From positions 4,849,800 to 4,913,799 of the forward strand of contig NZ_CP037920.1 in NCBI RefSeq assembly GCF_007748195.1: a stretch of DNA of 64,000 nt, in the 5' to 3' direction. The DNA is from Gimesia aquarii. GTDB taxonomy: Bacteria; Planctomycetota; Planctomycetia; Planctomycetales; Planctomycetaceae. Shown piece by piece: positions 1,042 to 5,715 of the stretch (positions within the stretch are counted from its first letter, which is position 1; each line of letters begins with the position of its first letter). The translations under genes and the position numbers were made by a program. The notes below the pieces were generated by a model. The model saw only the letters and a program-made list of their open reading frames with translations. It had not been told where the DNA came from and made no database searches.

Positions 1042-2280
1042 CTATGGCTGAAAAAAGCTAAAGGTAAAGACTTCCGTCACATTCGTAAATTGTGGTGAGA
1101 GTGACAGTCTGACATATCTTCGGTCCGGCGAAACAACGGCCGCCCCTGACAAACTGATCCCCTCTGGAATGACTGTAATCACTGGTTGATTGGCAATACC
1201 ACCCACATTTTGCGATCCTGTCACAAAAGGAACCTGCCTGCCTGTAGAGACACCAGCTCCCACCTGTCGTGAAACTCGAAACCCCTTTAATGATTTCACT
1301 GCCTGTTTTGAAAGCGGACCGACTGCATGGGACAAGTTATGAATAGTGCGTTGACTTGTTTTCTGTGAGTTTTGTTGAGGTTGGGGAACTTCTGATTTCT
1401 TTCTACGACGCCCTTTGGAAAGATCAATGCGAATCAACTGATCTTCTTTCGCCAGTGGAACAATCATAGACTGTATGATAGGTTGTTCTGATCCTCGATA
1501 ACGTGTCACTTTTAACTTTGCACGCTGACCGACAATCTTTCCAGAAACATAACGCACGCGAACCACATAAGTTCCTGGAAAACCATTGGCACACAAATAT
1601 TCTTCATGGCAGTTTTCCTGTCTGGGACCATAGCCATCATTGAGCAAAACTCCACCACCTGCCGTTAACGGTGCCTCAAATGAACACACGGTTCCTTTTG
1701 GTTCTTCGACAATCAGGTCCAAATCACCGTCCCCATTCCAGGTCAATTCCAGTTGTAAATCTCGTTTTAAGGCTTCCTTTCTGGCTAACCTTAGCTGCTC
1801 CGCTTCTGCTTTTCTGCCTGAGGACTCAAACGACTGCTCCAGATCGGCCAGTGCGTTTAATGCTTTCTCATGCAGCTTCTGGTGTCCCTTCACCCAAACG
1901 TGAGTCAAAATACCAGTCGCTGCCCACTGAATTGCCTGTGGATCTTTCAGCTTCTCAGCGAGGCGCAGGCCCATTACATAAGGCTCTGGTCGGGCAGGTG
2001 CCAACTTTGATGCTTGTTGATACAGTTTCAGAGCCTGCTCGTCGGCACTAAAGCGCGATAAATAAGCAGCCGAATAAACCATGTTGGAAACATCTGCCGC
2101 CGAAAAGTCAATTCGAGAAAGCAACGCACGCTGAATTTCATCTTTGGGGCGACCAACAATTTCCATTGACAAAGCAAGAACGTCATACATCCAGGGCTGC
2201 GATTGGTTATTAATTAAAGCCGCTTTAATCGCAGCGATCACATGCTCGTGTTTACCCGCCTGATGTAAATTAAAGATCAA
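1042..2280 (-). CDS. C-terminal module of the split VWA protein (TPR-like helices plus beta-sandwich), out of frame with its 5' part
   Basis: There is no ATG or GTG; the only plausible start in this block is TTG at 2280, with no ribosome binding site before it. The same frame stays open upstream to 2523 and reads as protein-like sequence (for example DPVAFWNDYF) that overlaps the end of the 922-codon VWA ORF. The 412 residues hold TPR-like helices (ALKLYQQASKLAPARPEPYVMGLRLAEKL) and then a secreted beta domain (ELTWNGDGDLDLIVEEPKG, GTYVVRVRYVSG). I recall this module as the usual C-terminal part of large planctomycete VWA proteins, so it is probably the rest of the gene at 2490-5216, joined by a -1 shift at the A9 tract at 2508-2516. 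The alternative is a separate gene with a weak TTG start. Confidence 0.7.
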   Translation of the reverse strand: MIFNLHQAGKHEHVIAAIKAALINNQSQPWMYDVLALSMEIVGRPKDEIQRALLSRIDFSAADVSNMVYSAAYLSRFSADEQALKLYQQASKLAPARPEPYVMGLRLAEKLKDPQAIQWAATGILTHVWVKGHQKLHEKALNALADLEQSFESSGRKAEAEQLRLARKEALKRDLQLELTWNGDGDLDLIVEEPKGTVCSFEAPLTAGGGVLLNDGYGPRQENCHEEYLCANGFPGTYVVRVRYVSGKIVGQRAKLKVTRYRGSEQPIIQSMIVPLAKEDQLIRIDLSKGRRRKKSEVPQPQQNSQKTSQRTIHNLSHAVGPLSKQAVKSLKGFRVSRQVGAGVSTGRQVPFVTGSQNVGGIANQPVITVIPEGISLSGAAVVSPDRRYVRLSLSPQFTNVTEVFTFSFFQP

Positions 2281-2411
2281 GTCATTTACGAGGGAGGGCG
2301 CAGGTTTTCGCTTGGAGAAATAATCGTTCCAAAATGCGACCGGGTCTTTAACATTACTCGTTAAAGGCAGCTTGGCCTCGTCCTTTTTTTGGGGCTGACC
2401 CTTAATAGAAA

Positions 2412-2439
2412 CGGAGCCATTCCTTTTGGAACGGCTCCG
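2412..2439 (-). terminator. Strong hairpin between the two halves of the VWA gene, terminator-like
   Basis: On the minus strand a 12-bp stem (CGGAGCCGTTCC with GGAATGGCTCCG, one G-U pair) closes an AAAA loop and is followed by TTTCTATT. It sits about 50 nt after the stop codon of the upstream ORF. It could terminate the short transcript or be a structure in the mRNA of a frameshifted product. The U-tract is imperfect, so terminator strength is uncertain. Confidence 0.55.
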
Positions 2440-2489
2440 ATCTGATAATTTAGATTGTTCAGGTACACCAGGCGATGTTGCTTTGGTGT

Positions 2490-5216
2490 TTACTTCACGA
2501 TTTCCGGTTTTTTTTTGAGTTGTTCAATCGTGTGATTGTCAAACCGAAAGGGATTATCCTGAACTTGAAATTGTGCTTTCGGCTGTTTTACTTCAGCCTG
2601 TCCCAGGATATTATTCAGGATTCCCTTTATTTCCTGGTCATTGATGGGCTGAAGCTCTTCTTTTGCAGGATTTACTTTCGCATTTTTATTCGGTTGCTTC
2701 TTTGCATTTTTAGCTTTGGGAGCATTCATCAGCAGCATTTCAGGTCCAACGCTGAAGAATCCTTGACCACCACCACCTTGTTGACCAAATCCGCCACCGC
2801 CACCGAAACCCTGTTGACCGCCACCTTGTTGGCCAAAACCACCTTGCTGACCACCAAAGCCACCCTGGCTGCTACCGACAGACTGCTGCTGAGTCGCAAC
2901 AGAAATTACAAGGTCAGCTACGGGATAAACGCGAGTGGTATAGATTTCATCTGACTTCACAATCGTTGTAATTTTCATCACTTCATCTTCAACGACGTAA
3001 GTTAAACCAATGGGTTTTAGGATAATATTTAGAGCACTTTTTAGTTTGATTCCACTTAACGATACATTGACTGGCTCATCAGGCGTTAAACCTTCTTCTC
3101 CCAGATCATTGGAGTTGATCAAAATTGTAATATTGTGCAAATCTGCAAAGTAAGTCATAACTTCAGAGAGCGGAATGTCAGGGAAATTCGCTTCTGTTTC
3201 TTTTTGTAGCTCTTCAAAAATTCGTTGTTCTGCAGGACTGTTTTTATGCAGGTCAACCGCAGCCCATTTCTTGCGACGTTCTGTTAAACTGGTCCAAACA
3301 GGTGCCGCAGGCCAACGAATTGGTGGTTCGTCAGGAAATGGAACATGAGACAATTCTACCTGATAAAGTGTTTCCAGAAAGCGGTCAGACCTTAAGGAAC
3401 GCATACGGAAGACTTTATCCAGTTGCCCGGCTGCTTCAGAAGTAAACAGGGCAGCTGTGGCAGGTCCATTACCAGGCTCCATATCAACAGCGACGCGAGA
3501 AACGGCTTCCGCCTCTTCGTAGGCATCACTGTCCCCATGTCTTCCGTCCTGCATTAAAGAACGGATGCGGTCAATCAACTGTTCCAGTTTTTCGTCCTCT
3601 AAAAGGATCTTATCTACGAGACGCTTTTGTTGTTCAAGCTGGGCTAACTGTTGTTGTTGTCGAATCCGTCGCGTTTCAGCAACTTCGATTTGACTGCGAA
3701 CTTCCACCATCATGCTGTTGAGGCGACGTTCCAGTTGCTGTTTCAGATCAAGTTCAATATCAGATGTCGACTTCACGAAGCTCAATGTTCGTTTTAACAT
3801 CCCCAGAGCACCATCGGGATTTTCAGCAGAGATCCTTTGTGCCTCTTCAATAGTATTGGAAACCTCAATTTTCATCTGGGCTCCCTTGATCTGCCTCAAC
3901 TGTTCGACTTTACTGATCGAATCATCAATTGGCGGTTTTGCATCACCTTTTGCTGCAGGCTGTGCTTTCGCATCAGCGGCTGGTTGTTTAGTATCCGCTT
4001 GTGCCAACTGGTCCTGCTTAAATTTATTAGACATTTTTAAAAGTGTATCGCCTCGGGTATTGCCCGGATCAAGCTGTTGAATTAAGTTTCCGAACTTCGC
4101 GGCCTGTTCAAAATTTCCACTTCGAATCGCCTGGGTTCCTGCAAACTCTAATTGAGCCATATGCTCTTCGTGTCCCGTACGAGCCAGATTCATCATTCTC
4201 TGCCCGGCAAATGCGATCCCGACCTCCTGCCCAGGTTGATAATTCACCCAGGGAACTGCCAGAAAGCTATTCACAGCTTGTGCGACAGGTACGTTGAACT
4301 TCCAGATACCACTTAAATTTTTGTTACTTAGCTCAACCGACAATCTTTCAGTCAGATCTCCTTCTGCAAGATAGATCGTGTCGCGGTCAGTTCGGATCGG
4401 TAAGGCTTGAGGTGTATTTAATACTAATTTCTTGTCAGAAAGCTGAATCTTTTCTGGAAAGAAAACAGGAGCTTGAATCGCTTTAGCCAATTCCCTGCCA
4501 ACCTTCGTCGGAAGATCTTTCTTCCCTTCTGCGAGATCGGTTAAGACCACACCACCTGTGTAAACTCCAAGAGTTCCCAGTAATCGCAAGTCTTTGCGAG
4601 GTCCAACTGCATAGCTGTGAACGGGAACGTTTTGGTGTGCCAACTGTTGAGTGAGTGCAGCCATTTCAGGAACAGAAATCAATTGAGCGGAACTCATTCC
4701 ATCGCCAATATATAGAATTGATCGAGTCTCTTGATTCTTCAATCCCTTCATCACAGTTTTCATTGCCTGAGCAAGATTCGTAGCACCCAATGGTGCACGA
4801 GAAGCGAGAGATTCAACGGCAAGCTTAGCCTGCCGGCTTTGAGGTGCGACAAATTCATTAACGAACGGAGTGCATTGCACATCGACTGCATAAACGGCAA
4901 CGGTGGAATCGTTTGGTAACTCCTTTAGAAACGACTTCAAAACATCCAAAGCCTGAATGCGATGCTCGCCAACCTGGCTGGCAGATGTATCAAACAAAAT
5001 CGCAATTTGTTTACCTGAATGAGCGTTTGAGGGTAAGCGATCTGCTTTTAATCGCAGAGCAAAATAATGCTGCCCCTCAGTGTTCTCATAGCTGAGGATT
5101 TGGCCAACGTTTGATATCTCTGGAACGGCATTCTCAGCAAAGCTGACAGAAGTGCAACAGAAAAGTGCCGATGCTGCTAAAACAAACGTTGCGATTCCAA
5201 ATCTGGATATTGACAT
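2490..5216 (-). CDS. Secreted von Willebrand factor A protein with coiled coil and STN-like domain (5' part of a probably frameshifted gene)
   Basis: ATG 5216 is preferred over the first in-frame ATG (5258), because GGGAGAGAG lies just before it and the protein then begins with a clean signal peptide (MSISRFGIATFVLAASALF..). After export comes a VWA domain with a MIDAS-type DTSAS motif, an Ala/Lys/Gln-rich linker, and a long coiled coil (many Gln, Glu and Arg). A secretin/STN-like beta domain follows (IPLSEVMTYFADLHNITILI ... LTYVVEDEVMKITT), then a Gly/Gln/Phe-rich tail. The ORF ends QLKKKPEIVK, where KKK is encoded by nine As (2508-2516). Just after that tract the frame is lost and sequence resembling the family C-terminus continues in the -1 frame to 1042. 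It is probably a surface-protein scaffold; its exact role is unknown. Confidence 0.85.
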   Translation of the reverse strand: MSISRFGIATFVLAASALFCCTSVSFAENAVPEISNVGQILSYENTEGQHYFALRLKADRLPSNAHSGKQIAILFDTSASQVGEHRIQALDVLKSFLKELPNDSTVAVYAVDVQCTPFVNEFVAPQSRQAKLAVESLASRAPLGATNLAQAMKTVMKGLKNQETRSILYIGDGMSSAQLISVPEMAALTQQLAHQNVPVHSYAVGPRKDLRLLGTLGVYTGGVVLTDLAEGKKDLPTKVGRELAKAIQAPVFFPEKIQLSDKKLVLNTPQALPIRTDRDTIYLAEGDLTERLSVELSNKNLSGIWKFNVPVAQAVNSFLAVPWVNYQPGQEVGIAFAGQRMMNLARTGHEEHMAQLEFAGTQAIRSGNFEQAAKFGNLIQQLDPGNTRGDTLLKMSNKFKQDQLAQADTKQPAADAKAQPAAKGDAKPPIDDSISKVEQLRQIKGAQMKIEVSNTIEEAQRISAENPDGALGMLKRTLSFVKSTSDIELDLKQQLERRLNSMMVEVRSQIEVAETRRIRQQQQLAQLEQQKRLVDKILLEDEKLEQLIDRIRSLMQDGRHGDSDAYEEAEAVSRVAVDMEPGNGPATAALFTSEAAGQLDKVFRMRSLRSDRFLETLYQVELSHVPFPDEPPIRWPAAPVWTSLTERRKKWAAVDLHKNSPAEQRIFEELQKETEANFPDIPLSEVMTYFADLHNITILINSNDLGEEGLTPDEPVNVSLSGIKLKSALNIILKPIGLTYVVEDEVMKITTIVKSDEIYTTRVYPVADLVISVATQQQSVGSSQGGFGGQQGGFGQQGGGQQGFGGGGGFGQQGGGGQGFFSVGPEMLLMNAPKAKNAKKQPNKNAKVNPAKEELQPINDQEIKGILNNILGQAEVKQPKAQFQVQDNPFRFDNHTIEQLKKKPEIVK

Positions 5217-5715
5217 AATTTCTCTCTCCCGAGTTACTTTGGGCAAGAATGCTCTCACTCAAATCACGTTCGGCGATTGCCGATTTGCGCATTCTCCTCA
5301 ACTGTGCATTGTATATTCAGTCTCGGACACCATTGAAGGAAATTCCCCCGATTTTCTCCTAATTCTCCAAATTTGGTCAGAGTTGAAAAGCGTTAGTCGG
5401 CACGGACTGAAGTATCCGCGTAATTTATAGTCCGATTATGGGGAAATTAGGGGTCAAAGCTCGCTTAACGAAACCATTGATTCCATGAGCGAGCACTAAT
5501 AAATCAATTCAAAATATTCACTTGTTCATACCATTTAGTAAATATTGAAGTCCCAACTACCGATTGGATGCACACATTATGCTGATTCCGCTCATTAAAT
5601 CTGGTGGATTTTGACGATCTTTCTCTTAAGACTCATCACCATCCACTCTCCAGTCAGTTCAGGTTTAACTTCCTGAGTTCAATACACGACACCATCTCTG
5701 TCATCTAAATTTCTC
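5217..5715. other. Divergent intergenic region, no gene
   Basis: This 499-bp region separates the VWA gene (minus) from the peptidase gene (plus) and must hold both promoters. I see no convincing coding frame. One inverted repeat has 7-bp arms (GCTCGCT at 5459-5465, AGCGAGC at 5488-5494) around a 22-nt loop; its role is unknown. Confidence 0.5.

Follow-up and report, generated by a model that had tools for sequence, protein, structure and literature searches.

A conserved nine-adenine frame junction in a planctomycete VWA gene: probable transcriptional slippage and a tentative link to termination

The DNA analysed here (the window) is a stretch of 64,000 nucleotides from the genome of Gimesia aquarii, which consists of one contig of 7,397,129 bases. 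Its minus strand carries a gene for a VWA protein whose open reading frame (ORF, 2490-5216) encodes a product of 908 aa from an ATG at 5216, while the listed version has 922 aa and begins with a GTG at 5258. In our reading the ATG is the likelier start, with a purine-rich stretch upstream of it and a signal-peptide-like sequence at the beginning of the protein. The ORF ends in CAA CTC AAA AAA AAA CCG GAA ATC GTG AAG TAA, where a run of nine A's (A9, 2508-2516, minus strand; codons AAA AAA AAA in the 0 frame) is followed after 15 nt by the 0-frame stop TAA (2490-2492). One extra A at this run, equivalent to a -1 shift, leads into a frame that remains open for 488 codons and stops at 1042-1044; the third frame past the run is full of stops. 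Joined in this way, the 903 residues read from ATG 5216 and the 488 residues of the second half (1042-2507, minus strand) give a long form of 1391 aa. The sequence thereby confirms three points of a first-pass annotation of this DNA, which had described the A9 tract as joining the VWA ORF to an open -1 frame, had put the fused product at about 1391 residues and had found neither ATG nor GTG in the ORF at 1042-2280. TTG is the only start of that ORF, and between the run and 2280 the shifted frame lacks ATG, GTG and TTG. A plus-strand gene that looks like tsaD ends at 1024, facing the end of the long ORF across 17 bases.

The short form comprises a signal-peptide-like start (our own reading), a VWA domain (VWA_3, PF13768, E 5.9e-17; 4551-5009), an STN-like region (2907-3236), a Gly-rich stretch and a linker. 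The STN-like region has no Pfam call and was recognised because it resembles the STN portion found in a secretin-type paralogue (L003, G000 1249963-1251078). This paralogue has a frame of 1712 codons, in which Pfam places Secretin above and STN below the cut-off, and it has two parts in common with the split gene: the STN region and a C-terminal stretch at about residues 418-486 of the second half (1051-1257). Ahead of this stretch, AlphaFold2 predicts (mean pLDDT 75) a TPR-type helical solenoid at residues 56-247 (1768-2343), also supported by Foldseek, and a beta-rich domain at residues 249-363 (1420-1764). The latter is probably a sandwich, a fold name that is our own reading of the predicted secondary structure. 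The Foldseek matches listed are TPR or helical proteins, including MamA and the pilus protein PilF. In NCBIfam, the first half had a single weak match, far below the cut-off, and the second half had no match. Elsewhere in G000, at 6323440-6327350, five ORFs of about 245-300 codons (L002, L004-L007) lie in a row and resemble the STN-like region of the VWA protein.

Within the G. aquarii genome the A9 pattern occurs at 86 positions, with overlaps counted. Among the 83 A9 runs counted, a few of them twice, only the run at 2508-2516 joins two long frames; by the criterion used, no other A9 gene of this genome joins two frames. In 623,109 bases of loci from the same family, junctions excluded, there are seven A-runs of eight and no A-run of at least nine. 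As runs this long are absent elsewhere in these loci, the A9 at the junction cannot be put down to chance.

With the second half as query, a match was found in 169 of the 170 genomes of the G. aquarii family (f1). Stops lie within some of these matches (e.g., in G014-G016), and among the matches listed only the one in G137, the source of locus L095, lies in a frame exceeding 1,000 codons. Loci were fetched from 130 of the 170 genomes (30 + 100 loci), leaving out the other 40, and the A-run was readable in 129 of them; L031, cut by a contig end and without upstream sequence, was dropped. The run is A9 in 125 loci, A10 in three (L025, L051 and L095) and A8 in one (L086). These 129 loci span 54 of the 58 genera of the family, with A9 in 53 genera and A10 in the remaining one.

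Both halves of the gene were found in 117 of these loci. The second half lies at an offset of -1 with A9 in codon phases 0, 1 and 2 in 95, 5 and 9 loci, respectively, and at +1 with A9 in four (L085, L090, L107 and L108). The remaining loci are at -1 with A10 (two), at -1 with A8 (one) or in frame with A10 (one); this last locus, L095, is the sole one-frame copy among the loci examined in the family. L064, in which the first half is cut off, is by inference a fifth locus with the +1 offset. Together the five represent three genera (L085, L090 and L064 belong to one genus), and in all of them the A9 is unchanged. Within genus g5, L107 and L096 have opposite offsets of the second half (+1 and -1), with A9 in both. 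Three loci called for a decision in these counts: L035 was taken as -1 because its apparent other offset reflects a frame change in a Gly repeat, as seen in translation; L055 was taken as -1 because its own came from N's and a misplaced frame; and L088 was counted as A9, the length of the run at its junction, since the A8 first assigned to it came from a later run. A 0-frame stop follows within 27 nt of the run in every one of the 116 loci that have both halves and are out of frame. Given how often stops occur in that frame, the chance expectation is about 0.14 per locus, with the caveat that the loci are related. In 116 of the 117 loci the two open frames overlap and the run falls inside this overlap; the one miss is L055, where the script misplaced the first frame.

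Outside this family, two patterns are found. A search at the level of the order returned matches from the own family only. In a search of the class, the matches listed from other families consist largely of single ORFs of about 1,300-1,600 codons, and several that are shorter run into a contig end. Twenty loci from other lineages were fetched; 18 contain both halves, and in 17 of these the halves share one frame, the exception (L157, an outgroup) having an N gap and a frame change. The linkers of these loci contain no A- or T-run above 6. In family f3, together with one f8 genome, both halves are present in six of eight loci (L330 and L335 have no first half); the halves share a frame in all six, and A-runs there reach 7 at most. 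One f3 genome has two nearby matches with frames of about 1,550 codons (G249:C3 323733-329958), perhaps a duplicated gene. Intact one-frame homologues, which the first-pass annotation had suggested looking for, are thus present in other lineages of the class, without an A-run of at least eight. Its statement that such proteins are normally one piece in planctomycetes holds for these lineages (17 of 18 and 6 of 6 loci) but not for f1 and f2.

In family f2, all 24 genomes (L336-L359, 13 genera) have an A9 in phase 1, a stop that follows after 5 nt and a second half offset by -1, so that the same junction of run, stop and hairpin recurs in another codon phase. We suspect that f2 and f3 are Gemmataceae and Isosphaeraceae. 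With both families pooled, the run is A9 in 149 of 153 loci, A10 in three and A8 in one, across 67 genera. In a tree of 87 second halves (38 of the 129 from f1, 24 from f2 and 25 from one-frame lineages), f1 and f2 each form a well supported clade of their own, and one-frame groups lie between the two. Two gains of the A9 junction, or one gain followed by two losses, would both fit this tree. Beyond the class, the matches listed are mostly to the C-terminal stretch.

A further element of the locus, missed by the first-pass annotation, is a hairpin downstream of the 0-frame stop. In the window, a terminator-like hairpin (CGGAGCCGTTCC-aaaa-GGAATGGCTCCG, 2412-2439, minus strand) lies within the coding sequence of the long product and is followed by a T-rich tail, TTTCTATT (2404-2411). 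It was found by a consensus scan of the window, in which terminator-like sites overall are at the shuffle mean (5 vs 4.6). Across the family, a strict stem search (score at least 20) found a stem in 77 of 130 records, a total that counts the window beside its own locus. The upstream control gave 1 of 122, and the two downstream controls gave 0 and 2 of 130. A second search, which tolerates one bulge or mismatch, found a stem at score 28 in 78 of 129 loci and at score 24 in 98 of 129. At score 28 the upstream control gave 0 of 119, the downstream control 3 of 129 and the linkers from other lineages 0 of 18. The hairpin is therefore common but not universal, with stems of at least 28 absent in 51 and stems of at least 24 absent in 31 of the 129 loci. 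In f2, a strong stem is present in 21 of 24 loci, compared with 1 and 0 of 24 in the controls.

The 78 stems of score 28 start at a median of 64 nt past the run and have a median of 16 pairs. Mean z-scores for folding drop to -2.8, -3.0 and -1.7 at +50, +60 and +70, compared with about -1.0 to 0.05 elsewhere. A cruder test (any 46-nt window below -18 kcal/mol) was unspecific, being positive in 121 of 129 loci past the run and in 66 of 128 upstream. In the 88 loci with both halves and a stem score of at least 24, the stem starts at a median of 49 nt past the 0-frame stop, a distance beyond the reach of a ribosome sitting at the stop; only in L047 and L102 is it less than 26 nt away. Stem sequence varies among genera, and paired changes are seen within one f2 genus (GATCCG/CGGATC in L337, GATCAG/CTGATC in L339 and GACCAG/CTGGTC in L350). 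Covariation within the genus of G. aquarii is slight, both sides having changed in 1 of 12 pairs. The one-frame locus L095 has merely a short stem, directly past its A10. These stems meet one criterion for an intrinsic terminator, a stable GC-rich stem-loop at a fixed place. At +2 to +7 past the stem the T fraction is 0.40-0.56, compared with 0.18 overall in the own family, but the T-tracts are short there and weaker still in f2.

Several explanations of the frame break do not involve slippage during expression. The first-pass annotation regarded a mutation or a sequencing error as the simpler alternative, and a decayed gene or an error in sequencing or assembly has nothing in its favour beyond the single sequence. 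Because the junction is conserved in separate genomes of 67 genera from two families, with a second half that stays conserved, mutation and error are excluded as its cause, and the chance left to this reading is negligible. The same comparison establishes the junction as conserved and selected. Two separate genes, the first ended by the hairpin and the second beginning within the linker, would make sense of a terminator-like hairpin between the halves and, in the window, of the TTG at 2280. However, the shifted frame has no stop between run and domain in any of the 129 loci of f1, lacks ATG over this distance in 107 of them and all of ATG, GTG and TTG in 24 (in f2, ATG is absent in 14 of 24), and other lineages have a single protein, which leaves two genes highly improbable. 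The first-pass annotation had named, as the outcome that would mean two genes, a split at this point in every homologue together with conservation of a start at 2280; the split is indeed constant apart from L095, but the conserved start did not materialise. Phase variation through slippage in DNA replication, with on/off switching, might be suspected of a homopolymer in an envelope-type gene, but run lengths would then scatter, whereas they are almost invariably nine and only L095 is in frame, so that on/off switching is barely tenable. On conservation, constancy of run length and lack of start codons, all of these readings (error, pseudogene, separate genes, phase variation) were rejected.

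Programmed slippage, the leading suggestion of the first-pass annotation, is supported by the A9 junction in 67 genera of two families; transcriptional and ribosomal slippage were not separated there. We consider slippage of RNA polymerase the best explanation of the junction and hold it with good confidence, in the absence of RNA or protein data. It is favoured by the presence of nine A's in all phases, by the flipped offsets and by the lack of a Shine-Dalgarno (SD)-like stimulator or a close structure. It also meets the criteria of a conserved A/T run of at least eight at the junction, of overlapping ORFs that are kept across genomes along with an other-frame extension that is itself conserved, and of independence from codon phase and shift direction (three phases, two directions). 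Programmed -1 ribosomal frameshifting on A_AAA_AAA would instead make the long form from an unchanged mRNA. The in-phase slippery heptamer (X_XXY_YYZ) that it requires is available, as every A9 or A10 run with a -1 offset holds an in-phase A_AAA_AAA (nine A's do so in any phase), and L086, with A8 followed by G, has the classic ribosomal A_AAA_AAG. Seven A's would suffice in phase 2, yet the phase-2 runs have nine, and L086 is the only locus in which a G shortens the run. The expectation that the shift is always -1 is not met either, since such a shift would not serve the +1-offset loci (L085, L090, L107, L108 and, by inference, L064). Nor do the own-family loci meet the expectation of an upstream SD-like sequence or of a structure 5-9 nt downstream: an SD-like motif at -20 to -6 occurs in 7 of 124 loci and is not enriched over background (182 of 2006), mean z-scores stay between -0.5 and -0.8 in windows starting 0 to +30 past the run, and the hairpin begins further downstream (median 64 nt). 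We regard -1 frameshifting as unlikely, though not negligible. The ribosome might also slide on consecutive AAA codons in several directions. Sliding on iterated AAA, with no fixed direction, has been reported for E. coli ribosomes (PMC4363877); a pair of consecutive AAA codons is reportedly read normally, and sliding is raised for more than two. Runs in phases 1 and 2 contain only two full AAA codons, yet have nine A's, and sliding is very unlikely without being excluded. The case for polymerase over ribosome is thus argued rather than proven, and slippage itself is inferred from an observed conservation.

With RNA polymerase slippage as the preferred reading, one gene very probably gives rise to a short and a long protein, although no transcripts or peptides are yet at hand. 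In some transcripts the A9 would be copied faithfully, and the ribosome would stop a few codons on, releasing the short VWA-STN protein. In others the polymerase would slip on the A9, and one extra A would allow reading into the second half; in species with the +1 offset, one A less or two more would reach the second-half frame. The long protein would gain the TPR domain, the beta-rich domain and the secretin-like tail. The hairpin may add a second consequence. On an unslipped transcript the ribosome would be gone, the hairpin about 50 nt past the stop would form and transcription would end, whereas on a slipped transcript the ribosome would run through the hairpin and transcription would go on. 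A single slip would then set both reading frame and transcript length, making the junction a slippage-gated attenuator. The run, the frame break, the stop and the hairpin position are conserved; slippage by RNA polymerase, termination at the hairpin and the coupling of the two are inferences, for which coupled transcription and translation in planctomycetes is assumed. That such an attenuator has been kept in two planctomycete families, gained twice or once with later losses, remains a tentative proposal that may well be wrong. The explanation as a whole, with slippage switch, short and long proteins and attenuator, appears to us fairly likely.

If true, a cellular gene would here use transcriptional slippage that is conserved unusually widely, and slippage would be coupled to termination in a new way. 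Gene-calling programs would report this locus as two genes or as a pseudogene and overlook the long form. Relatives with a single frame and species with the +1 offset provide a natural series for distinguishing slippage from ribosomal shifting, and repeated evolution can be tested on the two separate clades.

The literature searched yielded no description of this gene, and the main text of the GeneTack survey, which included two planctomycete genomes, mentions neither von Willebrand nor Rhodopirellula (PMC3711429). Thermus thermophilus dnaX likewise has an A9 on the coding strand, at which slippage gives two products in a set proportion; its unslipped mRNA encodes the long form and the slipped one the short, the reverse of the planctomycete gene (PMC5009743, PMC1088944). 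A survey of A9/T9 runs in 108 bacterial genomes reported seven conserved cases, six from IS elements and mapW of Staphylococcus aureus; the planctomycete gene satisfies the standard applied there, namely overlapping ORFs that are conserved together with their A9 (PMC1088944). In tssM1 of Citrobacter rodentium (A11) and the T6SS-3 tssM of Yersinia pseudotuberculosis, slippage restores the frame, and both forms and their ratio are needed (PMC4256274). Both systems share a stop soon past the A-run and short and long forms of an envelope protein; they differ in that two species are named there, in contrast to 67 genera here with a run nearly fixed at nine (PMC4256274). The terminator-like hairpin past the stop is a feature of the planctomycete gene, for which there is no experiment. 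By analogy with tssM, one might speculate that the VWA protein belongs to an assembly in the envelope, built around a secretin-like pore and containing two forms of a subunit at a set ratio, but this is a guess. A hairpin also accompanies the slippage site of a Roseiflexus IS, where a nascent stem-loop directly 5' of the slippage motif is described as stimulating slippage (PMC5009743). The planctomycete stem differs in starting downstream of the run, past the stop. In ribosome-controlled attenuators, such as the trp leader, the position of the ribosome decides whether a terminator forms, and the B. subtilis bmrCD leader is reportedly a transcription attenuator of this ribosome-controlled kind. 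The planctomycete gene is proposed to resemble both leaders in that ribosome position decides whether the terminator forms, and to differ from them in its input, a proposed slip of the polymerase within a structural gene rather than a leader peptide.
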